The notes under the pieces are model-generated. The model did not search any database and was not told the DNA's origin. It saw nothing but the letters and a program-made list of their open reading frames with translations. Position numbers and translations under genes: made by a program. From NCBI GenBank assembly GCA_029339505.1, contig JAQISU010000163.1:2852001-2916000 (forward strand): 64,000 nucleotides of DNA. The letters are read 5' to 3'. Shown here in pieces: positions 23,226 through 60,500 of the stretch (position 1 is its first letter; each line of letters starts with the position of its first letter). Source of the stretch: Unio delphinus. Taxonomy: Eukaryota > Mollusca > Bivalvia > Unionida > Unionidae.

Positions 23226-23289
23226 TTTGTAGAAAGTTTAGTCATAAGTATATATATTTAGTGATAATTATTCCATAACCACTAGGTGT

Positions 23290-28879: not shown

Positions 28880-29478
28880 ACACCAGTACATTATCTTTGA
28901 CATGGCTGACAACGTTGTGAATTAAATTGAGATTTCCACTGTTGGAAGTCATTGGGCCATTGATGTACACACTACGTTTCCTAGCTAAAGACAACATATA
29001 GCCATAATGGTCACAAAACCATCGATCTACTTTTTCGAGACGAATGACGCTCAAAATAAGTCACTAAATGTTCTAAAGAATGTCCATGACTGCGATGATG
29101 CAGATAATAGACAAAAAATTGTCCACACACCATAGAATCTGTGCCTTGTAATTTCACATTATTGAATCGTGTCGTCTGGGCATTTCTTCTCATAAAGTCA
29201 ATGATATCATCTTATAAAGGAGGCAATCCATACAAATCAAAATACTCTACATAACCCTCTTGAGGAAAGTAGACAGGTACCCAATGAGTTCCTGGAAGAT
29301 GACTGTCATCTGTGTTGATGACATAAGCTTGATTCTCTTGAGGCTTGCGATGAGGTAGTTCATCTTTAGCACACACGACAGGATTCCAAGAAGCAGTGTA
29401 CGAACTACGGTTCAAAAGATAATAAAGTTCCCAGGTATCCATTCTTTTTGTTGTAGCCTTGTTTTTTCCGTTCTTCAC
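28880..29478 (-). pseudogene. Adenain-like cysteine protease (Polinton PRO), broken
   Basis: The frame from 29478 reads DSHLPGTHWVPVYFP and VEYFDLYGLPP, giving the His and acidic catalytic residues. An in-frame TAA at 29212-29214 follows, then the same frame continues with KLQGTDSMVCGQFFVYYL, giving the oxyanion Gln and the catalytic Cys. The order His-Asp-Gln-Cys is that of adenovirus-type maturation proteases, which cleave core and minor capsid proteins. A frameshift near 29050 would extend it into the frame with EKVDRWFCDHYGYML. The start overlaps the end of the upstream gene by 4 bp (ATGA), typical of compact viral operon-like layouts. Confidence 0.8.
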
Positions 29479-29972
29479 AGGTGATGATAAGTCATCAATT
29501 CAATCCAGACTTTTTGCTTGAAAAGGTCTGTCAAGTAACTGTTGGTTTGCTTTGTCTCCTTACTCTTGGCCAAGAGAGCTTCGATGCGATCAATTTCTCG
29601 AGCAAACATTGAAGGAGAGGAATGATCACGTAAGCCTTTATACCACTGAAGTAACACGGCTTCTTCTAAGATGAGACTCCAAGCTTCGTTCAGATAATCG
29701 TCCAATTTTTCTTCTTGACTCATCATCATACGTTTATCGTGTTGAATTTGACTGGGATGATCGATTTGACAACCATAACAATCTTTTTTAATCATGTCTC
29801 TCATTGTATCCTCCAAGTGTTGTGCAAAAAAGGCAAATTACTGTTGTTCCTGTTCTGGCTATCTGGACTACATGATCACTACTTCTTCATTTTGGTCTTG
29901 GGGTTCGCCTTTCTCTGTAACCTCCAATTGCATAGATTCTCCACTATTCAAAGAAGGACAAGGGTCTTCCAT
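29475..29972 (-). pseudogene. Polinton small CxxC protein, three in-frame stops
   Basis: A single frame from an ATG at 29972 to 29475 (about 165 codons) is interrupted by TAG (29868-29870), TAG (29859-29861) and TAA (29838-29840). The C-terminal part has KKDCYGCQIDHPSQIQHD, a Cys-x2-Cys motif with His residues that could bind zinc, and then a helical region with LLQWYKGLRDHSS. Proteins of this kind sit beside the protease in invertebrate Polintons; their role is not known to me. It begins 5 bp after the capsid gene. Confidence 0.65.
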
Positions 29973-29977
29973 AGTGT

Positions 29978-31312
29978 TTAATAGTCTAGAATGACTTCTC
30001 TCAAACTGTTGATTTCTATGGTATTATCGAATTCGGCATACAGAATGACATTCACCGTGTCTTCAAGAGCCTCTGCAAACTGAAGTTCCACACGCAGTTG
30101 CCCAGATTTTATAGGTTGGAAATGTCCCTCTTTGCTGCCTTGGTCTGGAGTGAAATCAAAACCCCACAAAGTGTAACCTCTTGCATAATCGTCGTAGGAA
30201 ATGCCGTGACTGGTGTTGGTTCCTAATTGTCCTGTGCTTTCGTACAGCGACAAGTACGACTTCAAGTAATTCTTCTGTGCAAAGTTGGGGTCGAAAGGTC
30301 GGGTACACAAAGTTTTGCCATCGCGACTGACATCGATTTTGGATACTCTGCAGTGCTTAAACTGGAATTGATTTTGATTGTGGACACCGTTGAGGGCTGA
30401 ATTGTCGACGATACCAATGAATAAACGTTTGGGTAACTGTCCTTGGAACAAATGATCTTCGATCTTAGATCGGAGTCCAGCGGCAATGGTGAAAGTTTTT
30501 ACTTCTACGCGTCGTATCGGATACTTGGCTGTCGTTCTGCTCAAAGTGTGACTGATATCGTTTCCCACTTTAGGTAACACTTCCACACGACACACGTATA
30601 ACCTGGCTTCTTGGATAATGGTTTTGTATTCGTTGGCATGAGCCATCAAATGGAAAGCAGTACTGCTACTATTCAGTCTCAAGCGAATCTATACTCCGTT
30701 CAGCAAATACTTCTCTTGAAACCACACGTCCAAATGCAAACGATCGAATAGTTCTAAACTATGTCTTTGCAGAATTTTCTTTCGACGCTCGAGAAAACCC
30801 TCATTGACAACAACGTTTTCTGCACCACCCGCGACCAAGGCTGTGCTGTTAAACTTAGTATTATCATCTGCTGTGTCGGGTTTCCATACCACGCAAGCAT
30901 CTGAATGAGTGTTCATGGCTTCTTTTCCGTACGTCAAGAGATTTTCGAGGTACGATCGGTAAGGGTAAATATCCATGCTACTGCTGATCTGTTTGTTATT
31001 CAGGTACAAATCCACATCGCTTAACAAGGAATGCATGAAATTGTTGACGGAAGCTACTCGGTCATTGACTCATAGATTGGAGTTGTCCACCGTTTTGGCC
31101 ACTTTCACTTTCAAATACAAGTAACTGTTGTTGAGATCGATGTAATCTTTGGGTTTTCCTTTGATTTCAAACTCGATGGGAGCTGAATCCGTCAAAGAGG
31201 AGACGGGATGAAATTCAACCCATTGGTATTCTTGCTTGGTCATCATCGTGGGTGGCATGGAAAAGAGATCCAGTTTCGACTTGGAACAGGGACACGATTC
31301 TTGGTGCATCAT
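29978..31312 (-). pseudogene. Polinton major capsid protein (double jelly-roll type), two in-frame stops
   Basis: One frame of 445 codons from ATG 31312 to the stop at 29978, interrupted by TGA at 31070-31072 and TAG at 30689-30691 without frameshift. The N-terminus shows LDLFSMPPTMM, VEFHPVSSLTDSAPIEFEI and DYIDLNNSYLYLKVKV, followed by SVNNFMHSLLSDVDLYLN. These blocks characterise the F54H12.2-like hexon proteins of Polintons, which form the pseudo-hexameric capsomers. The length matches a full-size protein. The C-terminal half (30682-29978) is fully open. Confidence 0.85.
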
Positions 31313-31342
31313 TTGTTTTCTCTCAGTCTCAATGTTTTACTT

Positions 31343-31730
31343 TTAATAATCAAAAATGTCTAAGTCTCGAGAGGTTCTTTTTTTCTTCGTCTTTCTAGCA
31401 TTAGAGGTACGGAGACTTTTGGAAGGATGCCCTCGTCGACACTTTCTGCCTTGTCCTTGCTGTGTCCTCAGGGAAGCAGGAATGTCGGAATCGGTACCGT
31501 TCAGGGCATTTATAGGACTTTCTCGTGGAAACAAAATCTATTTGCCCGTTTGAAGCAAGACAGTTTTGCCTGCTCTTAAAAATGCTTCTTTGGGGTTTTT
31601 GTTTGTCAATGAGGACATTGTGAAGAAAATCTTTGCCGTGAGTCAATGCGGCATCTTTTAAGGCATGCAATCCTCGTGTCACCATCGCCTTCAAAAGAGG
31701 GACCACGGAACGAAAGGCTGATTTAAACAT
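31343..31730 (-). pseudogene. Basic core/minor capsid protein, frameshifted
   Basis: The start at 31730 gives an amphipathic helix MFKSAFRSVVPLLKAMV and LHALKDAALTHGKDFL. After a frame change near 31550, the frame 31534-31343 gives an Arg/Lys-rich C-terminus ending TKKKRTSRDLDIFDY. A helical N-terminus with a basic tail resembles adenovirus-type minor core and capsid proteins that are cut by the protease and condense DNA. It lies 30 bp before the capsid gene. Confidence 0.65.
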
Positions 31731-31754
31731 ATCTCCTATTTTGAAAATGAAGTT

Positions 31755-32658
31755 TCACTGTGACATTCTCTTTGGTAAATGGAATATTTTGTCCCAGTTC
31801 TGTTTTATAGTAATGTTGACACTGTTGAAATACGACTTACTGACGGGCAAATAACGAGAATGTAACAATTCGCGATGAACGTGATAGGAATTTCCACCTT
31901 CCTCATCAGCGGAGACCATAGAATCCACTTTGAAAGGAATGAGACTCAGTAACGGTACAGAGGTGTGTCCTACCACGTTGTACTCCACCACATCGGAGTA
32001 CACAAACATCAAGTTGAGTCCTTGGTTCATTTCTACAGGGAATCGAAAATATTTCGCAAAATCCAAGTTACTGGTAATGGCTGGTATTTCTTTTTTTTCT
32101 GGAGCATCTTGAGGTCTCCACCCAAAATGTCAAGCAATTCAGGACAAAATGTAATGACCATTATTTTATCCTCTGCAAATTTCATCATGAGGCGACGAGC
32201 CACTTTATGGTACTCAAAGGTAACACTTTTTTGGGGTGTCTGTCCATGTCTTTACCAAACACAGTATTGAACCTGTTTGCGAGTGTAGTCACTAAATATT
32301 GACCACTAAAATAGTAGCCTGCATGAATGAAGAACAGATAGGTGGTCCGTTTAGTTTTGGGGTCATCAGATTTTGTTGTGTCACCACTCCAAGAAGCAGT
32401 GATGCCTCGTTCGTCTAAGGCTTGTTGCAATTGTTCGTCATACACTTCTACTGTAAAAGTGTTTTGATTTTCGACGATGTTTTTGGTTCGTTTCGGGTGT
32501 ATCATTTCCACTAAAGCCACTTTCCAATGAGCATCTTGATCTGAATGAATGGTTTGAGGTAATTTAGCCGTGTAACAGCACAACCTGTTGTTAGGAAACA
32601 CCTGCATGGAACTGTCACTGGGTAACTTTAAGTAAATTTGGTTAATAGTGTTGTTCAT
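31755..32658 (-). pseudogene. Penton-like minor capsid protein, two frameshifts
   Basis: The frame 32658-32185 gives the N-terminal half (INQIYLKLPSDSSMQVFPNN, WKVALVEMIHP, YYFSGQYLVTTLANRF). The frame 32066-31755 gives the C-terminal half (NLMFVYSDVVEYNVVGHTSV, VHRELLHSRYLPVSKSYF, NSVNITIKQ). Frame changes fall at a 6-base A run near 32225 and an 8-base run near 32092. The strand-rich C-terminus beginning VYSDVVE is the signature of Polinton minor capsid proteins taken as pentons at the vertices. Its start overlaps the upstream gene by 4 bp. Confidence 0.75.
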
Positions 32659-33062
32659 AATTCCAACGTTCTTCTGTCCGAGGAGTCACTCGAAGTTAAA
32701 GGAGTGTCCAAAAGAGGATTGTGATTGACGGGGTGACTGTTAGGAGAATGACTAACGTTGGATGCAAGACTCCCAATAGTGTTACTGTTGTTCCCGTTGT
32801 AAGAGTATTTCAGGGAAGGATTGGGAGGAAGATAACCGGTGCAAAATTGTTTGTCTCCTTGTTGCAAACTCTAATTAGCAATGGTTGCACCGATGACACA
32901 ATACACCACAAAGATTTGACAGAAAAAGACGATTTGCATTTTAGGGACACGTTCTCCACACCACACCCACAAGGGTTGCTTTTGTAAATTTTGCAGAGAA
33001 GAAGTGGGTGAAGGAGTAGTCACTGTGGTCGCTGAAGCTGAATTAAAGGGCATGATGGTCAC
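32655..33062 (-). pseudogene. Single-span membrane protein, one in-frame stop
   Basis: A frame of 136 codons, interrupted by TAG at 32871-32873. Ser/Thr/Pro-rich N-terminus, then a hydrophobic stretch MQIVFFCQIFVVYCVIGATI (one membrane span), and an Asn/Ser-rich tail after the stop. Its role is unknown. Confidence 0.5.
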
Positions 33063-33170
33063 TTCTTTTTATAGTCGATGACTTGCGAGGCGTCAATCCA
33101 AGAATCCAAGAATCAAAACTAGGAGGATATCCTTTCCAACGTACTTTGACTTCTTTCACACGCCTTTTCC

Positions 33171-34179
33171 CTACTTTACGGGTTCTTCGTTCGAGAATGC
33201 TTTCAATGTCGTACACGTCGTCTTCTTTTTGGTGACACGTTGTAACTCAGGCATGTAAAACGTTCCTTTTAATACTTCTCCATTCATGTCTTCCAATTTA
33301 TAGACAGTAGGATGACGATCACGCAATCGTCCAGTAACATGAAACAATTTGGTGGTCCAGTTGGGTAAGTAACCTTTGTCGAAAGTGCGTTTGGTTTTGC
33401 CAATGCGTACCCAATCTCCCGGGGTTAACACTCCTCCACCTTTCTTGGGGACAACCAACGTCCGGGACGTACCAAACAGACGCTCAAAAACAGTCACTTC
33501 GTTGTCAGGTGTCACATCTTGTGGGGTACGTCCAATGCTTCTATGGTAAGATTGATTGTAGGCTTGGACTAAGTACGATAAGATGTCGATGTACTTGAGA
33601 GTGTGTTGATGCGTAAAATATTGCCACATGCGTTCTTTCAAGGTACGTTGAAAACGTTCCACGATACTGGCTTTGTTTTCAGTATTTTCGGTGGTGAAAA
33701 ACAAAGTCACGTTTCTTTAATTCTCGTTGGAAAGCTTGGTTCAGAAATTCGGTACCTTTATCGGTTTGCCATCAAAGAGGGTGACGACCACTTTGTTTCA
33801 ACACCAGTTGCAAAGCTCGTACTAACTCTCCGCTCGATTTGGATGTCAATGGCACGACCCAGACAAATTTAGAAAAGACGTCAATGACACAAAACAAATA
33901 TTTGTAGCCACGATTGTAGGTGGCTAAATGAGACACATCGGCTAAATCGGCTTGCCATTGATGATCGATCAATGCCTTCCACCAGAGTGCGACTTCTGTG
34001 AAATTTTCATCGAATGGGTTTATGTAAAGTTTACGTAGCTTGATCTTGTAACCATCGTTGTACTTCAGGTAAACGGAGCTTTTCAGGCGAGTTTTTGCAG
34101 CACGATACAATTTCTGAATACCTCCGTAACCTGCAGGGTGAGCTGGATCGTAGGAAATGCTGGCTAATACCTTCTCCAT
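33171..34179 (-). pseudogene. Polinton integrase (retroviral DDE type), broken
   Basis: The frame from 34179 shows YDPAHPAGYGGIQKLYRAAK at the N-terminus, then the catalytic core with WQADLADVSHLATYN (first Asp) and FCVIDVFSKFVWVVPL (rve fold). A TGA at 33772-33774 follows, then TDKGTEFL carries the second Asp. A one-base frame change near 33710 leads to KASIVERFQRTLKERMWQYF (catalytic Glu) and a C-terminal DNA-binding part with TPGDWVRIGKTKRTFDKGY. All three acidic residues are present. It would insert the element, leaving short target duplications. Confidence 0.88.
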
Positions 34180-34287
34180 GGTTTTGTTAATAAGGTACCC
34201 ACTCTTCGATCATACTGCTTTGAGTGAGACGAAATGGGGGTTGTTTAAAAACGGTTTTACGTGTCCGACGTGCCACAGGAGTTGACG

Positions 34288-34735
34288 TCAAGGGTACTGG
34301 TGGTGGTGGTAGTGGTGGAGGTGGTAATGAGATATCTTTGGTCTTCTTTTTTTTCTCACTTCTGGTTTCCTTTCTTTCTTTTTCACATCTGTCGAAGGAG
34401 GAGTGGCCATCATCTTTTTAACCCAAGTTTTGAGTTCTTCTCGTTGGGGAGTGGGGGAAGGGGTAAAGAAGGAAGCGGCAATCTTACTTGGAATGGGAGT
34501 GGCGGTGGGTGTGTGAAAGATATCGTGGGGTTCTTCTTCTTCCTTGAGTAATGGTGGGGTGACGTCTGTTTTGGTCACTGTAGATGGTGAGAGCGACAAA
34601 CTGTTCATGAGAGCCTTCAAATTGGCCAGAGTGGGTAGAGCTGTTTGTTCCACATCTTTTCGATGAAAGAGTTGTAGTCGTTGCAAGAGTTGGCCGTACT
34701 TTTGCGAGGTTTCTGTTGGTGGTTGGCCCTCATCT
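34288..34735 (-). pseudogene. Polinton ORF with KYGQLLQRL motif, 5' end lost
   Basis: The frame begins inside the fused polymerase-helicase frame and reads ETSQKYGQLLQRLQLFHRK at its start, then Ser/Thr/Pro-rich and Lys-rich linkers and a His-rich tail. A short conserved QLLQR helix followed by a disordered tail resembles an uncharacterised protein next to the integrase in invertebrate Polintons. Its own start codon is absent, so the junction cut it near its N-terminus. Confidence 0.5.
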
Positions 34736-37301
34736 CCACACATTATCACTTTTGTATTCGCACGCATTAACTAATCAAGAAACATTTTTAATACATCTAC
34801 CGAAACCGTACATATCTCATCCCAAATAATGATTTCAGGAATGAATTTCTCACCCATTATTTCAGAGTTCCATTCATCGCCCTTGTATCGAAAAAAGCTG
34901 TAATAAGTGCAAGCTTCAACGTTTCGTTGTTTTATCTCTCGCGCTAATCTATGGGTTGGTGTCAGCACAATCATTTTTGTGAAATCCGGAGGATTTTTCC
35001 CACGATATAATTCAATCGCACGAGTCGTCTTTCCCGACCCGCCACAACCGTTTAAATAAACTGTTTTATATCTACAAATTGGATAAGATATCGGTGGTGC
35101 ATTAGAACATTCTGATAAATTATCACCGTGTAAGAAATTATTTGTAATCTCAACGTCTGCTGATTCAGAATAATCACGCAGCGTTTCCCTTTTAATTCTC
35201 CATGTACCCCAGTGCTCTTCGCTACCGCTAGTAAATTTAATCACCTCGTTGATGTACTTTTCGTCAATGTAAAATGAATCAACAGCGACTCTAACTGCAG
35301 TGTCAGGAAATCTATTTATCATTGAAAATAAATTGATACAATTATAACCCAGCATAGGCGACCTCAAATGTGTATACGGAGAACTGTGTCCATCGTTATA
35401 AGTAACAATTGTACCCAATTTTGTTCCATCGGACAATAAAGCATCCTTACGATCAACATATATGTTTTTAGATACTGCATCTGCAATTATAAAGTCATAT
35501 TCGGTGCTATCTATAATCAAACGAGAAGAATATCTTTTGTAGTCACATTTTTCCCTCCCTGAGTGAATTTTCCAATTATTCTTCTGCCGAGATCTTTTGC
35601 TTCGTTGTTTCGTTGATTAAATACCCGTTTGGACCACTCAATAATATATTTTTCATCTGCCTGAATATATTTTCTGGATTCGTCAATTATACTATCAAGA
35701 CTTTCTGGTTCTGGTAGCCAGACATTAGTTTGTTTCCGATATGATATAATAGCTTCACTGGCTGTCAACGAAATTAACATTTTTGTATCAATCATGAAAC
35801 GTAATAACGTTATTGGCAGCCACTTTTTTCAGACGTGTGTCTACCAATCCAAATATAACAAACGCGATGAAGTCCTGCAGCAAATTCAAATGATACTACA
35901 CGAGCAAAACCGGTTAAATCAAAATTAGGCAGAGGTCCAATAATCGCAACACGAGTCATTTCATGTACGGGGTGTCCAAATCGTTTAAAACTCTCAGTAC
36001 ACTATCCATAACCAAGAAAACTCGCTGGATAACAAGCAACCATATCAACTAAAATGATACTTTCACGGTCGTATTTGCTATTGTATAAACCGCCATGATT
36101 AAATTCGAGGCAACTAGCCTGAATGTCTGGCAAGAATTAAGTTCGTGTTGGTTTCCATGTGTTTTTCTTTCTCGCAAAATGAGATGCAGCCGACGGAATA
36201 GTAAAACAGTCTGTCAATAATTGTTCATCGGTGGCTTCGCCACATGTTAAAAACCCACTAGCTGTTTTTTCATCTTGTTGTGAAACGTTTCAGCGCGGTA
36301 TAATTCACAATTTGGTCGTACAAACTGATCAATAATATCCGTTTGATTTTCAGCGCTGCGAAGTAACCACACTGATACGGGTTCGTTTTTACTCAAAAGC
36401 GCAATAGCATCGAATAGTTTCTCTTCAACGAGAAAACCATCCCTGGAGAAATCTTCTCCCAAGAATTTCGTGGGTATATACTTTATTTTTCTATTCCGTG
36501 GAAATATTGTGACCGCGGATGTCCATGCGTGTTCGTTATGATCAATAATTTTAATTGGGGCTCCATTTTTTTATATTTTGATTCATATAATACTTTTCCG
36601 GTTATTGTCATAACGGTTAATGGAAATCTCAGTGATGTTTCTAATTTTGCTATATCGCTAATAGTTGCTCCGCGTTTTTTGACTGTTAAACACCATTGAG
36701 CTATTTTGCTACGCCGTAAATCAGTTAGTTTGTTCCCTCGGGATGCATTTGTAAAATGCTCTGTTATTCGTTCTGCTACACAATTTATCCTCGTTGACTG
36801 CTTCATTGGTTTTAGTTTGCTTATATCAGGATTTTCATTTAACGGATATATCCCATAAACAACTGCTGTTTCAGGGTATGCTCTTTCATAGTATGATTTG
36901 TCAATTCCAGTTAACAGACCCGGCTTAGAATCACGGCTAACAACGACTGTTTTCTTGTCTTTGAGAATTGGTTCAAATTTGTCTCGTATAATCCAACCGG
37001 TTGATTCTACACGGATAATGAATTTCACTCTAAAAAAATATTTTTTGGCTGTCAAGTTGTGATATTATCGTTGCTCCATTTTCGTCGTTCATGGTGGCAT
37101 CAACAACACCATCAATTCGAAATGTTGACCAGCTATTAGATGCTCCATCACGCTTGAATTCAACAGCACAGTCACGAATTTTTTTGTCAAGCTGTTATCA
37201 TTTATTGCCAGTTTTGGCACATCTTTGAGGGTTCTATCGAGATTGAATTTAATATTTCTATAGGGCTTAATTGCTGATAATGTCTCGAATTCCTCAGTCA
37301 T
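34735..37301 (-). pseudogene. Element B: DNA polymerase B fused to SF1 helicase, truncated and broken
   Basis: Leftward frames in order: 37301-37089, 37055-36483 (KYFFRVKFIIRVESTGWIIR), 36462-36247, a frame-shifted stretch 36240-35800 with IILVDMVACYPASFLG (polymerase motif A), 35795-35517 (NNEAKDLGRRIIGKFTQGG, motif B-like) and 35520-34771. The last has RVAVDSFYID (motif C-like, residues 77-86), YLNGCGGSGKTTRA (Walker A), TPTHRLA and IIIWDEI (Walker B). An in-frame TAG at 34771-34773 precedes helicase motif III (IMCGDEGQPP), and the sequence then switches to element A, so motifs IV-VI are lost. The polymerase copies the genome and the helicase unwinds it. It is more AT-rich than element A and matches element C. 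Confidence 0.75.
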
Positions 37302-37340
37302 ATAATTAAAACAAGTATTTAAATAAAAAAATTATATATA
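37302..37340. promoter_or_regulatory. Divergent (bidirectional) promoter
   Basis: Only 39 bp separate the leftward polymerase start (37301) from the rightward zinc-protein start (37341). The gap is almost pure A/T and contains tatttaaata and attatatata, TATA-like on both strands. Confidence 0.55.
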
Positions 37341-37601
37341 ATGAATCACTGCAAATGGCTTATGATTGGATCAACAACCCCGTGTAACAAATCATGCAGA
37401 AGCGAATTCTGTGGGTATCATTTACAAAGCGTTCACAACGGTTCCTTTAGCCCTCTTCCGTGCCTCCGATGTAGGGTGGGGGTAACGGGAAAATCACAAT
37501 TATGCCTCAGTTGTGGCGGCAAACGATACAGGGAACTAAAGCGCTATTACGACAAGCGAAAAAAAATACCGTCATTGACCCCAACGAAGACAAAATTATA
37601 A
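37341..37601 (+). CDS. Small zinc-ribbon protein of element B/C
   Basis: An intact 86-residue frame. Cysteines are paired: HCKWLMIGSTTPCNKSC, then FCGYH, PCLRC and LCLSCGG, followed by a Lys/Arg-rich tail (KRYRELKRYYDKRKK). At least two zinc sites are likely. The start is preceded by attatatata directly before the ATG, as for the structural genes. It resembles small Cys-rich proteins found with the same capsid and polymerase genes in other animal genomes, and may act in nucleic-acid binding or transcription. It is the only unbroken gene of the left element. Confidence 0.65.
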   Translation: MNHCKWLMIGSTTPCNKSCRSEFCGYHLQSVHNGSFSPLPCLRCRVGVTGKSQLCLSCGGKRYRELKRYYDKRKKIPSLTPTKTKL

Positions 37602-38122
37602 GAATCCCTCAAGATTACATACAGAGACTTATAATTAAAGCAAATAATAAATTAGACAAACAATAGTATATAAATGAACCAAGAATTCCGAGCACACACC
37701 CGCGATTCCAAACTACGAAGCGTCCCGTGCAGCATTAAGTTTTCGTATATCTAATCGTGTTTTATACTATTTAGTATTAAGGGAGATAACTTGTTTAGGT
37801 ATGTTTACTGCCTATGAAATAGTTATCTCCCTTGTGTGTCACCGCTTTTGATGGGCTGTTATAATTTTCATGATTCTCAACGGAGATAATCAATTATCTG
37901 TTTTTGTAGGAAAACTAATGAAATACACGCTTTTAGCTAACAGCTATATTCTTTTTTTAGTGTTTTATTCAAATTTTCAGTCTCATTTAATTGTTGTGAA
38001 ACATCATTGACAAGTATTCAAGGAAATAAAATAACACACCCTGTGGATTGACGCTACTGTATTAGTCACCTTATATACCATATGAAAGGTATTAAGCTTG
38101 GGGCTTGCAAAAGCCAATCCCA
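37602..38122. other. Gene-free leader of element C
   Basis: AT-rich with several short inverted repeats, such as gggagataacttg against atagttatctccc around 37780-37835. No gene was recognised. Confidence 0.5.
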
Positions 38123-38219
38123 CCGATCAAAAGTAACCCACGCCGTTGACACGGGGCGTGGTTGTCTTTTGTCAATCATGCAACCGGGTTGATTTCATGG
38201 GTTGCTTTTGATTGGTCGG
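38123..38219. other. Cruciform/T-shaped inverted repeat
   Basis: An outer stem ccgatcaaaagtaaccca (38123-38140) pairs imperfectly with tgggttgcttttgattggtcgg (38198-38219). Inside lie two more stems: ccacgcc (38138-38144) with ggcgtgg (38155-38161), and ggttg (38160-38164) with caacc (38181-38185). The plan is that of hairpin telomeres or origins in small DNA viruses. Confidence 0.65.
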
Positions 38220-38534
38220 ATGGCCGTAGAAAATCCGCCCCGTCGTCTCATGTTTGTATCGTCTAGTGCTGTCCCATCATCATCATTGTATCATATATCA
38301 TCACTGTATATAATTCATCCTTAATTAAATTAATTAAGTTAATTAATATGTATGCCTACAACCTGCCAAACACTCGATGGAGATTACCGGCATTGTAAGT
38401 ACATGTAGTGACGTCCCCCAAGCATATCTTCTGGGCGGTCTAATATGACAGTTGTCACGTTTTATGTTTCGGGCCCCCTTGGGCTTACTTGGATGTGAAG
38501 GCAGCCAAGGAGTTCCAAAGATGTGTTGATATAT

Positions 38535-38882
38535 GTAACCTCTGGGTCTCTTTCACGTTATTTGACGCGAAAGGGGTTTCCAAATGGGGTTTTCATGTAT
38601 GTGCTGTCCTTAATTAAGTTAATTAAGTAACCTTTGGGTCTCTCTGACGTCATATGACGCCAGCGAGATCGCCTAATGGGGTTTTCATGTATGTGCTGTC
38701 CTTAATTAAGTTAATTAAGTTAATAAAGTAACCTCTGGGTCTCTTTCACGTTATTTGACGCGAAAGGGGTTTCCAAATGGGGTTTTCATGTATGTGCTGT
38801 CCTTAATTAAGTTAATTAAGTAACCTTTGGGTCTCTCTGACGTCATAAGACGCCAGCGAGATTGCCAATGGGGTTTTCATTT
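38535..38882 (+). repeat. 193-bp dimeric repeat with alternating hairpins
   Basis: Blocks start at 38535, 38627, 38728 and 38820, each beginning gtaacct and ending ggggttttcat. Odd blocks hold ctttcacgttatttgacgcg with aaag closing a stem. Even blocks hold a gacgtcatatgacgcc palindrome. Blocks are joined by cttaattaagttaattaa. It ends about 35 bp before the first rightward gene of C. Confidence 0.88.
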
Positions 38883-38915
38883 TTCAAATTGGAGATAAAA
38901 TATATTATAATAATA

Positions 38916-39301
38916 ATGGATATCCAAGATGTAAATAATATAATTGCTGAAATTTCAAATTTGAAAAATCGCGGAATTGTATTATCGGAAAATCTAGACA
39001 TTGAACGCATTATGTCTGAATTTGAGCATATCGATGATCAATCAAAACGAGGTCGTTACGTTTTATCCAAGATGTATTCGCTGATAAAGCGAATACAAAA
39101 TCAATTAATGCCTCGTTGTATCGTAACGACGTTACTGTATTCATAGTTATTCAGTATCGTTGAATCAATTAGACAGAAATTAGGGCAACAGTACCAGATT
39201 AGATCCGAGATAGCCTCTAAAGTTCGTAACATTAAACGGCTGATTGAAGAATCCCATATAGACCCTCACGCTATCGTGAATGATAACAAACACACGTTAT
39301 G
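38916..39301 (+). pseudogene. Small helical protein of element C, one in-frame TAG
   Basis: The start at 38916 is preceded by attataataata. The frame reads MDIQDVNNIIAEISNLKN with several heptad-like helices, meets TAG at 39144-39146 and continues in frame with LFSIVESIRQKLG to TGA at 39299-39301. About 127 codons in all. No family was recognised. It is the first gene of the rightward cluster. Confidence 0.5.
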
Positions 39302-39466
39302 AATGGAATTTCTATGGAAGTAAATGCACGCACAATAGAATTTATCTACGGGTGGATTCCTTTTTTTCCCGGTAAAATCAAATGCGATTTTCACGATTTC
39401 ATAAATTGCTTGCAATTGAAATCGTTTACGATTTCGCATTTGAAAATTCAGTGGGTTTTTACAATA

Positions 39467-39928
39467 ATGACCGCAACAGCATTAACTACTAAATTGGCAC
39501 GAGAAAGACTGGCAGCCATTAAGAAGTTTTTACCAGTCAGAGACCGATTACGTGATAAACTTCAACGACGACAAGAACTGCAAACTGACTTTTCTGTTTC
39601 AAGTGAACATCTGTTTGCCCCAATAACGAGCGTGACCAAAGATGTAAAAACGGCAACAGAGCGTGCGATATACGGAGATAACCCTGAGGAAGGAGCGCAA
39701 CGAGAAGTTCCTGTTCTTGGTGTGCTTGAAAAGATAGCAGCGGAAACTGAAAAGACATCAGCGCTGTTACAAAAAAAAACACCTGGTCCGAAAAAGACTA
39801 ATGATGAAATAGTAGATGAATTACGTGCGCGATTTAACGAAGAAGGGTTAGCAAAAATTGATAAGACTGACCCAGCAGAGTTTCCTGTACTTGTTGTTAC
39901 GACGTATGAAAACAGAAAAAAATGTTAA
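39467..39928 (+). CDS. Element C ORF, charged helical protein
   Basis: I chose ATG 39467 over the longer frame from 39299, because the intergenic hairpin and ttttacaata lie directly before it, as for the neighbouring genes. The 153-residue product is highly charged, with long helices (KLARERLAAIKKFLPVRDRL, then KPRO-free acidic stretches such as NDEIVDELRARFNEEGL). No known fold was recognised. Its end overlaps the next frame by 7 bp inside an A run, so the two may be one gene split by a frameshift. Confidence 0.55.
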   Translation: MTATALTTKLARERLAAIKKFLPVRDRLRDKLQRRQELQTDFSVSSEHLFAPITSVTKDVKTATERAIYGDNPEEGAQREVPVLGVLEKIAAETEKTSALLQKKTPGPKKTNDEIVDELRARFNEEGLAKIDKTDPAEFPVLVVTTYENRKKC

Positions 39929-40515
39929 AACCAGAACAACACAAGTATGTAGGAGGTATACAACATTGGGCTGATATATTTTACAAAATTAAAACTAACA
40001 CAAGTAGAGTTGACAAGGACAATACGTCATATATTGAATATCTCAAAATGGTGAGAACAGTTTATAATGAATATGAAAAACAAAAATCACAAGGACTGCT
40101 GAGGTGGCGACAACAACCTGCAAAAAAAAAATATCTTTTTCACCTGCTAAACAACAACCGGTCTGATCAGCCCGAAGATGATTTAGAAGAAGACAAAGCA
40201 GCTGTATTTAGTAGTGGAAAGGGTTTTTCTGGTAGCGGCAATGACAAAGTCAATGATGGAAACTCTTCGAGTGAAAAATCTTCGATTTTGAACTCAACCG
40301 TGACATGCCCTGGTAATATTCTCAGTGATATATCACGGTTAGAGGTACTTGTGGGTGGAAAACGAGCCGGAAACAACTCCGTTGAAATAATTAATGAAGC
40401 AGCTGATATCTGCAGACGATTATTTGCCAGTGGTATCATGGACATTGATGTATATCGAGAACTCATTGATGAATTAGTAGATGTGTTTGACCACCATGAT
40501 GTTTACAGCGATTAA
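39922..40515 (+). CDS. Element C ORF with conserved GGKRAGNN block
   Basis: 197 residues. N-terminal part YVGGIQHWADIFYKIKTNTS and a helical region, a central disordered Ser/Asp-rich linker, then a C-terminal domain SRLEVLVGGKRAGNNSVEII with NEAADICRRLFASGIMD. That C-terminal domain looks conserved in related virus-like elements, but its function is not known to me. The ATG lies in the run gaaaaaaatg at the end of the preceding frame. Followed by a 154-bp hairpin-rich spacer. Confidence 0.6.
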   Translation: MLKPEQHKYVGGIQHWADIFYKIKTNTSRVDKDNTSYIEYLKMVRTVYNEYEKQKSQGLLRWRQQPAKKKYLFHLLNNNRSDQPEDDLEEDKAAVFSSGKGFSGSGNDKVNDGNSSSEKSSILNSTVTCPGNILSDISRLEVLVGGKRAGNNSVEIINEAADICRRLFASGIMDIDVYRELIDELVDVFDHHDVYSD

Positions 40516-40669
40516 ACTCGGAGAGTTTCAAATCGAAGATTTTTCACTCGAAGAGTTTCAAATCCATAGGTGAAAATTTCAAAAGAAATTTTCCATTTTC
40601 ACTCAAGGAGTTTCACACTAGTATTTAGAAATTGCTAGCAATTGAAAACACTAGTGTTTTTATAACAAG
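40516..40669. promoter_or_regulatory. Hairpin-rich intergenic region before the core gene
   Basis: Contains gagtttcaaatc repeats, a gtgaaaat/attttcac stem (about 40572-40603) and the perfect 16-bp palindrome aaaacactagtgtttt (about 40645-40660), followed by tataacaag before the ATG. Confidence 0.6.
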
Positions 40670-41181
40670 ATGATCATACACTACAACCATGATAAACCAA
40701 CAAGCGTGTATGTGGTAAACTCACGATTGCCTGTTTATAGAGCATATTACGGAGATGGTTTTGGCAATACCATTGTGGGGTTATTTACAAGAATGGCCCC
40801 CAAAGTGGCGCCGCTAGTTAAACAATTAGGAATGAAAGCCATTGATGTTATTCGTGATAAGGGTATTAGCGCTGTTGGAAATCTTACCGAAAAGGCATTT
40901 TCTGCAGCGAAAGATAAAATAACATCATTGGTGCGACGACGAAAAAAGCAACCAGTTGTACTGCCATCTACAACAGAGATGCCTGCAAGTGTCAGCAAAG
41001 CAATAAATAACGCAGTCAAAGAAAAACTAGCGTCAATGGCGGGGCTACACCGGTGACTCCATCACTTGATCTACAAAATAGCGCTATCATGAACGCGATA
41101 GCGGGAAGTGGTTTGAAACCAAAAATGAAATTAGAAGACTTTTCAACGACGATGATGATTACAAAGAGTTTCACAAGTGAA
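40670..41181 (+). pseudogene. Core/minor capsid-like protein of element C, frameshifted
   Basis: The frame 40670-41056 shows VYRAYYGDGFGNTIVGLFTR, an amphipathic stretch PLVKQLGMKAIDVIRDKGIS and basic RRRKK. The coding trend then passes into a second frame at a GGGG run near 41040 (LQNSAIMNAIAGSGLKPK) and probably a third at an A run near 41124, ending just before the next palindrome. YGDGFG and a basic middle recall the precursor core proteins of adeno-like viruses, substrates of the element protease. Confidence 0.55.
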
Positions 41182-41204
41182 AACACTAGTGTTTTTATAA
41201 TAAA
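41182..41204 (+). promoter_or_regulatory. Palindrome plus A/T start context before the capsid gene
   Basis: The same perfect palindrome aaaacactagtgtttt as at 40645, followed by tataataaa and the ATG at 41205. Confidence 0.65.
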
Positions 41205-42653
41205 ATGTTTAAACAACAAGCTGATCCAGCGTTTGACATGCCCCAGTGCGCGAGGACGATTCCGTCCGCGATCATCAATAATATTCCTATCATGCAATAC
41301 AACCCAACTTACGATCGCGAATTGAACTTCAAGTTCAAGATACCAGTAAATAGTTTTTGCCGTGTGAAGCATTTATTGAAGTAGAAGGAGAACTTGTAAC
41401 AAATGTTGCAGCTGATACACCATATGCAGATAATGCAAATATTTGAGTTGGGTTCGTCAACAACGGCATCATGGCGTTATTTGAAAGTGCAAGATATCTC
41501 ATTGATGGAAAAGAAATTGAATCAATAGACCGTGAGGTTGATGTTGCAACAACAATAATCGGGCTAGCAAGATATTTTGATGAGTATACAAGGTCGGCTG
41601 GTCCGTCTATGATGTTTGCAAAGGATACCTCTGATAACGCTGACCACCTTCAGTACATTAAAGTACGAACAGCGCAGGCTACTGCAGAAGCCGATCAACA
41701 ACTCGCAGCTAATCTAGACCGCGAAGCAAGACCAGCCGCTGAATTCGATATTATAAAAAGAGTCAATGAACGTTTCAATTTAGGGTTTTCAACACTAAAG
41801 GGGGCATTGCAAGGGCAACGCCGTCAGTTTTCATGTGCAATTCCGTTGCATCATATTTTCGGATTCTGTAGAAACGTCAGAAAAGTCATCTATGGAGCGA
41901 AGCATACAGTAGCGTTAGTGCGAAAGGGTAATGACAATGATGCAATCTGGCGTGCTAATGGTATCGATGATGGTAAAGTTGTTTGAACTAAATTGGTATT
42001 GTTGATGCCAGTGTTAACTCCATCAATTACCGCAGAAGAGCGGCTACTCTCATTTATGGATGCGGGTGGCAAATCATTGCTAAGTTGGCTAACAACAACG
42101 ACTGATGCCAAAGAGGATAATGTAGATGGTACATTTACATGGCATTTAGCATCCAAACAAGGCATTTCAGCTCCACGCCATATATTTATAGCGCTGCAGA
42201 ATAGGGAACGATTAGGTCGTCAGCTATCCAGCCATATGATATTTGATCAGTTAGGGGTCGAGGAGGTTTCGCTGAGAATAAACGGACAACAGGAACCATC
42301 CGAGGATATACAGCTTGATTACAATAGCAACCACATAGCACGTGTGCATCATAGAATGCTGTCATATATGCTGTTATCAAAATGTTGATACTGCTTTACA
42401 AATATCGCAACTTGATTTTAAAAGCCTCTATCCGATTTATTACTTTTCACTTGAACATCTTGATTTAACAAGACAATCCACTGTTGATATATATTTTCGA
42501 GCTCGTGTGAAACGCCCAACTAATGCGGCGGGGGATGTTATCCTTATCCCAAATTACAGAGCGGTTGCTGTCATTCTCAGTGATAAATCAATGTTGTTAG
42601 AAGGAGTTGGCGGACAAATGAGACTTATTGATGCACTAGTGGAAAATCTTTGA
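41205..42653 (+). pseudogene. Major capsid protein of element C, broken
   Basis: A gene of about 480 codons in four frame blocks. 41205-41383 reads QYNPTYDRELNFKFKIPVNS. A frame change near 41360 and a TGA near 41446 precede 41471-41986 (LFESARYLIDGKEIESID, ARYFDEYTRSAGPSMMFAKD, FSCAIPLHHIFGFCRNVRKV, IYGAKHTVALVRKGNDNDAI). A TGA at 41984-41986 is followed in frame by LLMPVLTPSITAEERLLSFM and ASKQGISAPRHIFIALQNRE. After a frame change near 42382 comes DFKSLYPIYYFSLEHLDLTR. This is a capsid family found across animal genomes, of double jelly-roll type by inference, unlike the Polinton protein of element A. Confidence 0.7.
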
Positions 42654-42675
42654 TTGAAAAATCCTTGTTAAAATC

Positions 42676-42698
42676 GTGAAAATCGTTTACGATTTCAC
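42676..42698. other. Intergenic hairpin
   Basis: gtgaaaatcg, loop ttta, cgatttcac. A close relative (aaatcgtttacgattt) lies at 39419-39434 before another gene, so it is a recurring element of C. Confidence 0.6.
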
Positions 42699-42737
42699 AA
42701 TTAGATCAATTGAAAGCATAACGTGCTTTACAATAAA

Positions 42738-43654
42738 ATGCCATATAGTGTTGTTAGTGTCAAGTTGAATGATGGTCAGGTTAAGAAATTAAAATCAAAA
42801 TTCGCTAAAGAATGCGGAACCACAATAACGTTGAAACCAGCGCAGATGTCCGGCGGTACACATAAAATATCATTGACGGATCGTCAAAAAAAAACATTTC
42901 AATGATGCGCTAAAAAATAAGCGAGGGGTTCAAACTGTATTTTCAAAGGCTGCAGTCGCCAACATGATAAAATCAGGTGGTATATTTACGTTGTTAGCTG
43001 CAATACCAGCGTTGATTGCAGCGGCTGCCCCAGCGGTGGCGAATGCGGCTGCGTTGGGGACCGTTGGTACCACGGCAGGGATGGCACTAAAAAAGGCGAC
43101 TGGACAGGGTTTTAAAAAAGGGAAAGGGTCTAAGACTACCAGGAACTCCGTATTCATGGTACAGCGGAAAGGGTCTGAGAATCCCAGGAACGGTTTATTA
43201 GTGGAAAACCCAATTATCCCCATGTCCAATTTTGATTTAATTGATGCTGCTGTAAAACTAGCGATAAAAAACTTCAGAGGTTTTTTTTATGAGAGATCAA
43301 TTACCGAGAAAACCAAATAACGTTGAAACCGGTATCATCAATCTTGATAACTCCAACGGTGAGGGAACTCACTGGGTTGCATACGCGATTGATCCACGTG
43401 GGATTGTTTATTTCGATTCATATGGATTAGCCCCACCAAAAGAGTTTATGCGGTATATATCAAATCGCTCAATTCCGATTTTTTATTTCACGCTGCCAAC
43501 ACAACAATTAAATGATCCACCAATATGCGGCCGTGAAGTATTAAATGTCCTCGCGGTGATATTAAAATCCTTTGGATTTCCGTGGAAACCACCACATGTG
43601 GTTGTAAACGAATATACCAGTGGGAGGTTTTTAGTGAAAAAATCCATAAATTGA
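42738..43654 (+). pseudogene. Adenain-like protease with long N-terminal extension (element C), two frameshifts
   Basis: Start 42738 after caataaa. N-terminal block VKLNDGQVKKLKSKFAK and ISLTDRQKK. A frame change at a 9-base A run (42886-42894) is followed by an Ala-rich hydrophobic stretch LLAAIPALIAAAAPAVANAA and a Gly/Lys linker. A second frame change at an 8-base T run (43281-43288) leads to the protease domain: GEGTHWVAYAID (His), GIVYFDSYGLAPP (Asp) and NDPPICGREVLNVL (Cys). The adenain order His-Asp-Cys is kept. The C' copy at 63478 is unbroken over the same domain. Confidence 0.75.
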
Positions 43655-43677
43655 AAACACAAGTTGCGCTAACAATA

Positions 43678-44660
43678 ATGATTGATATTTGGGGACGTTC
43701 TATTTCAATGTGGAAACCAACAGCGGAAACATCTGCGGATTCTATCAAGGATGTAAAAAAAAAATAATTGAAGATGAAATCGCTGAGACGTTGAATTTAG
43801 CAAGTGTTGACCCCGGGGAAATAGTTGTATTTCAAGATCGCCAGGGCAAATTGAAAACCAGTAATGTGTCCCTGGATGACATTTTAACACGACAACGTGG
43901 TGTCGCTGAAAACACAATAGCGTTATATTCCAACGATGGCAAACTCAAACCAGGCGCACTTATATCTACAATCACAGATAAACTTGCCGAATACGATAAA
44001 GAATTTGACGATCATGTGAAAAATTATAACCAATTTCGCAAAAATGTCATCAATAAGTTCTTTGGATCCCCGATTGTAATTACGTCGTCTCTCGCTGAAA
44101 TTAATTCGTTTATTGATGATCAAAAGGTCATCAATGACCTCAATGATAAATTTTTTACAAAAACATCCGAAAATGTTAAAACTACATATTTGGAAATAAT
44201 CAAAAAACTTAATGAAATCGCTGATATTAAAAAATCTATCGAGGATGGTGAAACAATAATCGACGCCGTCAAAGATGATTTTCCTAAAATGGTCGAACGA
44301 CTCGATAAGGTAAAAATTCCACATCCCGTAGATGGTATCCGTAATGTTGTGTACACGGTCAGATATGGAATCAAGGATTGGATCAGAGACGCCAATACCA
44401 CGATATCTTGGGGTGCTCCCTCTGGCAGTGATTACAGTAATGCGATTTACCGATTTACAATAATATCTGATGATCAATTTACAATAACATGTAGAAATCT
44501 TATTGACAAATCTATTTTTACAACAGGTATCAACGTGGTAACATTTAAATATCATCCAAACGGTATAGAATTTGAAATGCAAGCGGTTAAAGATAACACG
44601 GTTAGAAAAACAATATCGTGGATTATGGAAATTGTAACAAATATACCTGTAGAAGATTAA
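43678..44660 (+). pseudogene. Fibre-like protein of element C, one frameshift
   Basis: ATG 43678 follows aacaata. The first frame runs to a 10-base A run (43755-43764), then the frame 43689-44660 continues: NLASVDPGEIVVFQDRQGKL, a helical shaft region with DDHVKNYNQFRKNVINKFFG, and a strand-rich C-terminus. The N-terminal 70 residues are nearly the same in C' (63396-62368) whereas the C-terminal third differs strongly, as in fibre or receptor-binding proteins. No sequence family was recognised; the role is inferred. Confidence 0.55.
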
Positions 44661-44667
44661 TTCAACG

Positions 44668-45134
44668 ATGACATTTCCAAAAACGATGACATCAACCACG
44701 TCACCGATGATTTCATCATCGCAATATCGCTATGATACGGTCAAAGAATTTTCAATGAAACTCAAAACACTCGCTGATGAGTATGCAATGAAAAATATCG
44801 CAGGAGAATTACAGTCATTGACGTTACAGTGTATTCGGTATCTGGTGTAATGGCCGGAGCTGGTATTACACTGTCTTCAGTGACAATGATAGCTGCGGTT
44901 GTTGTTCCAATTTGTATATCCGCGGTGACAACAATTGCTGGGGATGCAAAAGCAATCACTAAAAAATTATCAAAATGTTCCCAGGGAAAACTCAACGAGT
45001 ATACAGTAAAACATCAAATAGCATCTAACGGTTACTCGCAATTATCCTCGTTGATATCATCATCGATTGATGACACAGTAATTACCGAAGACGAGTTCTC
45101 CGCGATGGTACGTATTTATGATTCCGCGGTATAA
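44668..45134 (+). pseudogene. Two-helix membrane protein of element C, one frameshift
   Basis: The frame from 44668 reads SSSQYRYDTVKEFSMKLKTL. A frame change near 44792-44800 (short A run) leads to 44829-45134 with hydrophobic YSVSGVMAGAGITLSSVTMI and AAVVVPICISAVTTIAG, then KLSKCSQGKLNEYTVKHQIA and SLISSSIDDTVITEDEF. Two adjacent hydrophobic segments with a C-terminal helical domain match the intact C' copy (62295-61738). It may be a virion membrane or membrane-penetration protein. Confidence 0.65.
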
Positions 45135-45162
45135 AAATTAGAAATTGTAAACAATGATAATA

Positions 45163-46507
45163 ATAATGTCACTAAAACTCGAAGAGTTTCAACTACTTCA
45201 ACGAATAGCAGAAAATACCACTCCGGTGAAAACAAGCATGATATCAATAACATCAACAAACCCTGAATTCAGTGTGAATTTCCCTTCCCCGATTCCAGTG
45301 AAAGAGATAGCGCTAGCTAAATTACGAGTATACCATAGTTGGCCCAATATTAGGTCGGTTGCATTTGGCGGTCAACAACCCAATAATTCGTTGGTGTTCT
45401 CGTATAAGAATAAACCCTATGATACCCCAGACTGGAACGTTGTTTCCATACCAACTGGGTCGTACCAAATTGAACAAATTGATGCTGAATTGCAACGTAG
45501 AATAAAATCAATCACGGGAAAAGAATCAAAAATAGCTATTATAGTTCATCAACCGACGTTCTCATCCGCGATTGAAATAAGCTCAGAGGGATACACCGTG
45601 GATATTTATAACAGCTCAATAAGAACAGTGCTAGGTTGGCCTGAAATACCACTTCAGGGAGGAACAGTTAATATACCACCTGAACCTAAAAAATCTGATT
45701 ATGTCACAGACAAGATAAAACCTGATAATCCAGTAAAAAGCTATAGCGGTTACACCAAATTGAATTTTTTCACTATAATAATAGAAAATCGCGTTAAGAT
45801 AAAATCACTGAAAATTTCACAGCGTTCAATGACGGTTTTTAGCTGTTGTTAATATCTCTTAAATTCGGTACTCTCACTCGAGATGAATTTATCAGCGTCA
45901 TAGAAACATGTAACAAAATCATCAATGACAAGGAAATATTTCATTTGCAAATCATTCAAGAGGTATTAATTAACAGTAATCCTAAAACAAGAACAGAATT
46001 TGAAACGAAGTATAGTATACGCGTAGAAGATATTCCAACATTCAAACTACACGGATATAATATATCAGAACTACAAAAAATCTCTCAATGATGCCATCGA
46101 TAAAGGTTTCAAAAAAAATCCATGATGAATGGAAAAAAATAACATCACCGGAAATAAAAATCCTGACACATAATAATGACCCAGACGGAGGCGGCAGGCA
46201 TATTGCCCCGCACAATGTAAATATTTCATTGGTGATTGCGCTCAATTTAGTATGTGATGCTATCGAAGGAAGCTATCTAATTAATCTTGAGCAATCAAAT
46301 CAAGCCCAACAAGGATATATTCTTTATTCATTTGCACCAACAGCTCCTCCAGGATTTTTAATAGTTGAGGATCCGACCAATCCCGTCTATATGCGATGCC
46401 ATAATAATTCACTAACGAGAATTAATTTCCGACTCACCGACCAGTCAAATAATTTGATTGATCTACAAGACGAAACGTTACAAATTAGTCTGTTTGTAAG
46501 GTCTTAA
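45163..46507 (+). pseudogene. Penton-like protein of element C, two breaks
   Basis: I chose ATG 45163 (aatgataataatg) because C' starts at the equivalent place. The frame reads PIPVKEIALAKLRVYHSWPN, VSIPTGSYQIEQIDAELQRR and RTVLGWPEIPLQGGT. It breaks at about 45780-45840, resumes at 45846-46091 (LKFGTLTRDEFISVIETCN) and breaks again at an A run near 46077. It ends with 46088-46507: VIALNLVCDAIEGSYLIN, YILYSFAPTAPPGFLIVEDP and NFRLTDQSNNLIDLQ. The strand-rich C-terminus with LVCD...EGSY parallels the penton-like protein of element A. Confidence 0.72.
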
Positions 46508-46905
46508 AGGACTTGATCAAATATTCGGTTGAAAATCTTCGATCCGTGATGCAGCAGCACATGGCGACAATAACCCGCGTCGATATTTTTTTAGTTTTGT
46601 TTTGCCGAATGGAGGCTTCTATAAAGCATTTGTAGGAAGCCTTGGATTAGCGAATGGACGCCTGGAAAAAGTTGTAGGATTTTCATCATAAATGATTGTT
46701 AACCAATAGCAGCAGAGGGGGCGATGACAACATCATTGCGACCCCCGATGATTGAAAAATCGCTAAGTCTCCGTTTGCCAAATGGAGACTTTTTTTTTTT
46801 TGTTTAATACATGAGATTTCGTAGGAAGGCTCTATTTGCCGTTTTGACGGTTTAAATCGATTTATCGCAAAAAGTTGTAGGATTCGCCTCCTCTGCTGCT
46901 GTATA
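46507..46905 (+). other. Right terminus of element C: palindrome with inner hairpin and T run
   Basis: Starts with aaggacttgatcaaatatt, shared with C'. Outer arms agcagcagagg (46708-46718) and cctctgctgct (46890-46900) are perfect inverted repeats 171 bp apart. Inside is a hairpin (46767-46789, arms gtctccgttt/aaatggagac) directly followed by 12 T, terminator-like. aaaaagttgtaggatt occurs twice (46665 and 46869). The same plan is seen at 60288-60467. Confidence 0.7.
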
Positions 46906-60287: not shown

Positions 60288-60500
60288 AGCAGCAGAGTGG
60301 GTGAACAGACTTTCTCTAATTGGGGTATATTTTAAGCAAAAATATTCTAAGTCTCCATTTGCCAAACTGAGACTTAACAATTTTAGAGCTCTGTTTGTCA
60401 AACGGAGCCTTCCTCAAGGGTAAAAAAAAAAGATGCCATTTAGTTGACGTTCACCTCCTCGGCTGCTAATGCGCTAACTAAATATTTGATCAAGTCCTTA
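60288..60500 (-). other. Terminus of element C': palindrome with two inner hairpins
   Basis: Outer arms 60288-60306 and 60449-60467 match at 16 of 19 positions when inverted (agcagcagagtgggtgaac against gttcacctcctcggctgct). Inside are two stem-loops, 60351-60373 and 60388-60408, each with a TTTG..CAAA core, and a 10-base A run (T run on the minus strand). The phrase tgatcaagtcctt at 60488-60500 is shared with C. The layout equals that of 46507-46905. Confidence 0.72.

Follow-up and report, generated by a model that had tools for sequence, protein, structure and literature searches.

What kind of element carries the virus-like genes of this locus, and how did it enter the genome of the bivalve Unio delphinus? 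An earlier note on the window (the whole analysed stretch of 64,000 nucleotides) described two gene clusters, B and C, as the halves of one DNA-virus-like element that joins a polymerase-helicase fusion to adeno/Polinton-type virion genes, is distinct from a neighbouring element A, has neither integrase nor ATPase, and entered the genome by a route left open. We could confirm the virus-like character, the fusion, the virion-type genes and the distinctness from A. However, B and C are very probably separate copies that belong to a single family of virus-like, integrating dsDNA elements of ~16.2 kb.

Element B is an old, truncated copy

Element B (34714..46901, no strand assigned) is an old, decayed and left-truncated copy of the virus-like element, with its genes in the same order as in C. 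Its left limit is sharp, similarity stopping at 34714 in 26 and at 34717 in 3 of the 29 fetched relatives, and its right limit, 46901, is a terminal AGCAGC repeat; the previously given extent of 34735..46905 was corrected to these two limits. At 34713/34714, B adjoins a different, separate Polinton-type element, the A of the earlier note (29212..34713, minus strand; rve match E 5.6e-6, below the cut-off). Over short stretches, A was 35% (integrase, 67 residues) and 43% (protease) identical to the genes of C.

The left break falls inside the helicase of the replicase gene (34714..37301, minus strand), which is frameshifted and cut after CGDEGQPP, so that its HNH end is gone. The zinc-ribbon gene (37341..37601, plus strand; 83% to the C copy) lies, as the earlier note had it, divergently from the replicase, and the two start codons are 39 bp apart when counted from the reading frames. 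All further genes of B are on the plus strand: a small conserved gene (38940..39263; 42% identical to a 160-aa frame of the C copy), a broken conserved gene of unassigned fold (39416..40497; matching a 380-aa frame in the C copy), and a small basic protein (40655..41056; 67% to the C copy, which has no Pfam match) that we take to resemble adenovirus core/pVI-type proteins. They are followed by the double jelly roll (DJR) major capsid gene (41202..42650; PF21738; 69-78% to the C copy) and by a hydrophobic protein and then a frameshifted adenain-like protease (42681..43633), recognized by sequence comparison with the C copy and by the catalytic pattern. The last three genes keep the names of the earlier note: a putative 'fibre' gene (43758..44645; 38% to the C copy), a membrane-protein gene (44713..45257; 59-65%) and a frameshifted, putative penton-like gene (45151..46504; 52-82%). 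B ends in a right terminal repeat (46702..46901, minus strand) that is self-complementary (AGCAGC...GCTGCT; fold z -5.7, five ends aligned).

The intact copy C carries an integrase and an ATPase

Element C (60288..64000, no strand assigned) makes up the left 3.7 kb of a copy that is intact, 16,126 bp long and mostly outside the window, running on to G000:C172:2928413. It begins with a left terminal inverted repeat (TIR) of 210 bp (60288..60497, plus strand; 99% to the right repeat), and AAAAA is present on both flanks of the element. On the minus strand follow a putative penton-like gene of 450 aa, which is open (60498..61850; 94 scored copies at 97-100%), a membrane-protein gene (61738..62301, a stop-to-stop frame that overlaps the next frame), a putative 'fibre' gene (62368..63441), and the adenain-like protease, in a stretch that also takes in the end of the gene before it (63478..64000). 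Between its TIRs the intact copy has genes for an RVE integrase, for a packaging ATPase of the A32 type (Pox_A32, E 1.6e-12) and for a phospholipase A2 (PLA2). The integrase matched PF00665 with E 2.5e-8, above the cut-off, rve being its sole Pfam listing, and its candidate catalytic residues are D72, D131 and E166.

These data bear directly on the proposal of a single element that has B and C as its halves and lacks integrase and ATPase. In its favor, neither gene was seen in B itself, either among the frames of B or in comparison with the genes of C. However, C repeats the late genes of B in inverted orientation, 70-73% alike where the DNA aligns, which rules out B and C as a single element. 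An integrase within intact copies had been set beforehand as the observation that decides against the proposal, and the intact C copy contains one, together with the ATPase. Moreover, integrase, phospholipase and ATPase are kept beside the replicase in all three close relatives of B, indicating that B lost them by truncation, and as an old copy without its left part B is uninformative on how the family entered the genome. An integrase-less element is thereby ruled out as well, and we regard the proposal as almost certainly wrong.

An exact 5-bp target-site duplication (TSD) was present in 10/10 other copies checked. These came from 10 of the 12 listed repeat pairs, the window copy apart, and all belong to one young subfamily; with lengths of 3-10 and five offsets allowed in the script, all ten are accounted for by 5 bp at a single, constant offset. 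The layout of the family is one divergent gene set between TIRs, with a terminal block of integrase, PLA2 and packaging ATPase, a replicase arm (a pPolB palm that runs into an SF1 helicase and then an HNH-type end), and a late arm of DJR capsid, adenain-like protease and several genes of virion type. When 138 polymerase places and 150 capsid places were scored, 12 fusion-capsid pairs lay within 12 kb of each other (the window's own included), all 12 divergent, where 0.2 were expected, indicating that fusion and capsid gene go together, as the earlier note had supposed.

The replicase resembles polymerase-helicase fusions of the Tlr1 type

The leftward polymerase B palm that runs into an SF1 helicase, as first described, was borne out. 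Motif C (AVDSFYID) and the P-loop NGCGGSGKTT share one open frame of B (34771-35616, minus strand), and the helicase matched Pfam AAA_19 with E 1.4e-5, just above the cut-off. Motif A (DMVACYPAS) lies upstream in a different frame, showing that the window copy is frameshifted; in C, palm and helicase are in a single frame. Since no Pfam polymerase match was obtained for the replicase of B or of the C copy, the palm assignment rests on motifs and a predicted model. A 68%-identical relative has a model whose residues 268-722 match phi29 polymerase and whose residues 745-1067 match Pif1, and the viral structure matches include mavirus polymerase (E 1.1e-12). The phi29 alignment begins at phi29 residue 52, which we take to lie inside the exonuclease part of that polymerase.

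In the replicase alignment A1 (44 of 53 matches), the first Asp of motif C (DTD) was replaced by Ala in 44/44 relatives, with T-D next in 43/44. At the genome loci the motif pattern was matched in 26/30, reading A-V-D or S-V-D and never D-T-D, and 4/30 gave no match. Before the palm, N-C was present in 41/41 and H-N-x-H in 41/43 of the lettered rows of the 44; we assume these to be vOTU-type Cys/His motifs. Downstream, at least one of two HNH-type motif patterns was found in 29/29 genome relatives, some frame-shifted; the coding strand of the window copy B had neither pattern. A stricter HNH-type pattern was found in 27/44 sequences of A1, and of the 17 misses several stop short of the region and several show cysteines. 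Another alignment, A2, comprised 15 of 16 matches plus the window. PHROGs gave matches for the helicase, the endonuclease (weak) and the ATPase. Judged by its sequence, the replicase has the hallmarks of the 'Tlr1-like' pPolB-S1H fusion already described: A-T-D for D-T-D, an SF1 helicase after the palm and an apparent HNH-type end.

Capsid, protease and other late proteins

Profile searches of the reading frames supported the capsid in this cluster. Two pieces of the major capsid protein (MCP) of B matched DJR with E 1.6e-8 and 7e-4, the second below the cut-off, and that of an intact relative matched with E 5e-16; a PDB sequence search with the MCP gave no match, nor did PHROGs for MCP or penton. 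The proteases of both B and C show H-W / D-S / Q...C-G, presumably the adenain catalytic pattern, and their Pfam matches were below the cut-off (E 0.009 in B; Peptidase_C5, E 0.034, in C). The claim of an adenain-type protease thus holds for the catalytic pattern only, by which we call it adenain-like. The 'fibre' and 'penton-like' identities were not borne out: neither protein of C had a Pfam match, the predicted penton model (60498-61832 in the earlier note) was poor (mean pLDDT 56.9), and the penton profile found nothing better than E 0.06 in PDB, with no match in one frame of element A or in phage records.

We then estimated selection on the capsid from 8 of the 150 matches, chosen for open frames and a spread of identities, plus C. 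For pairs with dS above 0.6, dN/dS was 0.11-0.26, showing that selection has maintained the capsid between subfamilies.

Copy number and a possible life cycle

A word from the integrase was found 2,217 times in the 2.5-Gb genome (100 of the 2,217 places and 100 of 146 TIR places were listed), and these counts may include fragments and haplotype duplicates, such as equal-scoring matches on contigs C18 and C268. The element has thus multiplied to about two thousand places. We are highly confident of which genes and repeats the family has, of its 5-bp target duplications and recent mass multiplication, and of purifying selection among open capsid copies, and equally so when insertion by the RVE integrase is added.

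The genes suggest the following cycle. Linear DNA would be copied by protein priming from the (AGC)2 ends while the fused helicase separates the strands, and the vOTU-like part would release the priming domain. The ATPase would fill capsids and the protease mature them. In parvoviruses PLA2 aids membrane crossing, and here it may help the particle across a membrane. The integrase would insert the element ends with a 5-bp stagger. A particle-making life cycle seems to us somewhat more probable than its absence.

Comparison with known systems

Tlr1 elements and polinton-like viruses (PLVs) are the known systems to which this animal family is related. Tlr1 of Tetrahymena thermophila, as portrayed in parts of PMC11071308, PMC4028283 and PMC12721341, combines an RVE integrase and a packaging ATPase with a DJR capsid and with a palm-S1H replicase whose C-terminal part is an endonuclease, and the present element likewise unites RVE integrase, Tlr1-like replicase, DJR capsid and packaging ATPase. 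In those accounts, however, Tlr1 has a ciliate host, a GIY-YIG end and no adenovirus-like protease, whereas the present family has an HNH-type end, PLA2 and the protease pattern seen in B and C. The label 'non-Polinton' given earlier is right only narrowly, since the element is related to Polintons, in the manner of Tlr1. PLVs and transpovirons with a 'Tlr1-like helicase' (pPolB-S1H) are described with the palm-S1H order and the loss of the first motif C Asp seen here, and with an HNH or GIY-YIG end and vOTU-type Cys/His before the palm, for which like motifs occur here. They differ, in the same descriptions, in their protist or giant-virus context, most PLVs having no RVE integrase and transpovirons no capsid. 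OmPLV of Oxyrrhis marina, an endogenous PLV, also has SF1 helicase and pPolB in one protein, but there, according to the portion of PMC12721341 that treats it, the helicase forms the N-terminal part, the exonuclease has been retained, and in place of RVE there is a tyrosine recombinase.

Animal Polintons/Mavericks and adintoviruses share integrase, ATPase, adenain-like protease, DJR capsid and TIRs with the family, and one could ask whether this is an ordinary mollusc member of these groups, at most with an exchanged replicase. The RVE integrase and A32 ATPase agree with this, as does the fact that Mavericks are a sizeable class in the bivalve repeat table of PMC8905726. In the available descriptions, however, their pPolB has no fused helicase, whereas the replicase here consists of palm, SF1 helicase and HNH-type end, with A-T-D in motif C, and the neighbouring element A is merely 35% alike in its integrase stretch. 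Adintoviruses have an integrase with a C-terminal chromodomain and a hexon recognizable by BLASTp. The vertebrate Mavericks covered in PMC8097293 have a 6-bp TSD and (AG)3 or (AGT)2 ends, in contrast to 5 bp and (AGC)2 here. We therefore consider an ordinary Polinton unlikely.

A different question is whether the family is now a transposon only, its capsid genes being baggage and its copies spreading in germ-line nuclei without particles. A transposition burst would also produce the many integrase sites and near-identical open copies, and no confirmed relative appeared when a viral contig collection was scanned by pattern, using the replicase piece of the window, the penton, the replicase alignment and the MCP. 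The low capsid dN/dS, in a sample picked for open frames, speaks against it, and we judge it to be rather improbable. We also consider, as less likely than not, a metazoan, still-propagating Tlr1-type integrating virus lineage, with real particles, adenovirus-like maturation, PLA2, pPolB-helicase-HNH replication from self-complementary repeat ends, and thousands of invasions of the bivalve germ line.

In the literature covered here, Tlr1-type replicases are described from algal and metagenomic viruses, from transpovirons, from a giant virus and from a ciliate, and we found no paper on one in molluscs in the CC-licensed PMC literature. The Tlr1 figure legend in PMC3671162 names Hydra among its sequences, and a homologue from an animal may thus be on record already. 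The mass expansion, in an animal genome, of an element that joins integrase, protease and PLA2 to a selected capsid gene would connect Tlr elements with Polintons and adenovirus-like viruses within a single host. Finding actively reproducing polintoviruses has been called an important experimental challenge (in a passage of PMC4028283), and with a young family of many near-identical copies such reproduction becomes directly testable.

Results

Element B, a copy spanning 34714-46901, contains a leftward replicase gene (pPolB palm fused to an SF1 helicase) and, beginning 39 bp from it, a rightward series in the order zinc ribbon, two conserved genes, small basic protein, double jelly-roll capsid, hydrophobic protein, adenain-like protease, 'fibre', membrane protein and penton-like protein. 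The copy is decayed: in the replicase, one frame holds both motif C and the P-loop, motif A lies in another, and the matches are split over three frames for the replicase, two for the capsid and three for the penton.

DNA alignment revealed that the late genes of element C, which enters the window at 60288-64000, are the late genes of B in inverted orientation. Positions 60481-62295 aligned with 46525-44707 of B at 73% identity and 63074-64000 with 43999-43116 at 70%; the stretch between these blocks gave no alignment at the DNA level. Beyond the window, C keeps the order of B (hydrophobic protein, 471-aa capsid gene, small basic protein, 380- and 160-aa frames), followed by a free HNH endonuclease (HNH_3, E 4e-9), a zinc ribbon and a divergent replicase open over at least 1207 aa. 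Past the replicase lie a 318-aa integrase on the opposite strand and then a phospholipase A2 (PLA2) and a packaging ATPase. The far end is a 210-bp repeat that matches 60288-60497 in inverted orientation apart from two differences, giving a total of 16,126 bp with AAAAA at both flanks. The free endonuclease gene (HNH_3/NUMOD type, L031:5641-6093 in the fetched intact copy) has the zinc ribbon on one side and the late genes on the other; none was found in B, and it may be an optional passenger that adds to element length variation.

Similarity to B stopped at 34714 (26 copies) or 34717 (3 copies) in all 29 relatives fetched. This break lies within the helicase, directly after motif III, where the neighbouring, different Polinton-type element A starts. 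At least one HNH-type cysteine pattern occurs downstream of this point in each of the 29, with the frame shifted in some. Three close relatives of B all have an integrase (cut by the stretch end), PLA2 and ATPase downstream of the replicase. The earlier note had described the genes largely correctly, but its inferences that B and C form one element and that this element lacks integrase and ATPase were wrong, because the late genes of C are inverted copies of those of B and both enzymes are present in intact C and in the close relatives of B. Element A itself (29212-34713) holds an integrase piece (E 5.6e-6, below cut-off) and a protease frame with T-H-W and D-L-Y-G, and an open frame crosses the A/B junction at 34713/34714.

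The same genes are linked across the genome. With 138 places scored for the replicase and 150 for the capsid, 12 pairs, counting the one in the window, lay within 12 kb, against 0.2 expected, all divergently oriented. For the penton (94 places) and the integrase (125 places), 11 pairs, again counting that of the window, were 13.2-13.7 kb apart, against 0.19 expected, all on the same strand and in the expected order. Missing pairs mean little, because these lists hold only the best-scored matches among tens of thousands of first-look candidates.

Target sites were examined in 60 bases fetched per end for 10 of the 12 listed repeat pairs, apart from the window copy. An exact 5-bp duplication was found at the identical offset in 10/10 copies, with ten different sequences; a single such match at a fixed offset has a chance of about 1 in 1,000. 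These duplications indicate that the element inserts with a 5-bp stagger, which we assign to its own integrase.

The element ends read AGCAGC//GCTGCT. Adenovirus uses protein-primed replication with jumping back, and short repeated ends of this kind would suit the same process here. The terminal repeats (46702-46901, 60288-60497 and the fetched ends L053-L055) carry an inverted inner copy of their own end 180-240 bp inward in 5/5 aligned ends, and 4/5 contain an inner hairpin, AAGTCTCC...GAGACTT. Single-strand folding was stronger than in shuffled sequences, with z -5.7 for the B end (0/200 shuffles equally good) and z -2.8 for the C end (1/200). Elsewhere, at G000:C35:7684528-7684889, two end-repeat words stand inverted just 362 bp apart, possibly a minimal (MITE-like) derivative.

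The 94 best-scored penton frames were 450-451 aa long with 97-100% identity, 93 of them stop-free; of the 125 best-scored integrases (99-100% identity), 124 were stop-free. When up to 3 mismatches were allowed, a 45-base word from the integrase occurred 1,090 + 1,127 times, and a control 0 times. If all were full length, the family would amount to about 36 Mb, or 1.4% of the 2.5-Gb genome, a guess on the upper side given haplotype duplicates and fragments. The capsid gene of C, compared with eight other open copies, gave dN/dS 0.19-0.26 at dS 0.68-0.97; for the full set of 36 pairs, median dN/dS was 0.27 (range 0.11-0.75, the maximum from a very close pair). The capsid was thus kept by selection during subfamily divergence. 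Choosing open frames biases the sample towards intact genes, but that bias alone does not produce low ratios at such dS.

The 64-kb window is part of a 6.65-Mb contig. It also holds large tandem arrays of 31-bp (10271-14513), 41-bp (50016-51851) and 66-bp units (57621-59738, ending about 550 bp before C), and, judged from translations only, non-LTR retrotransposon fragments at 19369-25710 (minus strand) with a FADD reverse-transcriptase motif and an RNase H-like frame.

Discussion

For the penton and the replicase of the window, the nearest named database proteins belong to two freshwater mussels, Sinanodonta woodiana and Potamilus streckersoni (45-65% identity), which makes a unionid-like bivalve the likely host. 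One Sinanodonta protein model, P0014, combines a CABIT domain with a penton-like stretch, probably through annotation fusion or host capture. A load such as that estimated here has precedent in bivalves, to judge from the Maverick entries of 1.69 and 1.93, taken here to be percent, in a repeat table (PMC8905726).

Judged by the presence of replicase, integrase, ATPase and capsid, the family is of Tlr1 type. Its PLA2 and protease set it apart from Tlr, in which the protease is reported to be absent (PMC4028283). From Mavericks it differs in the fused replicase and the 5-bp duplication; vertebrate Mavericks have a 6-bp duplication and (AG)3 or (AGT)2 ends, according to PMC8097293. In the survey of PMC10120064, cnidarian major capsid proteins are reported to be the sole ones from metazoans that fall outside its main Maverick-Polinton cluster. 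Taken together, the data give good support to the view that the element belongs to a known kind of virus-transposon and is a variant of it in animals.
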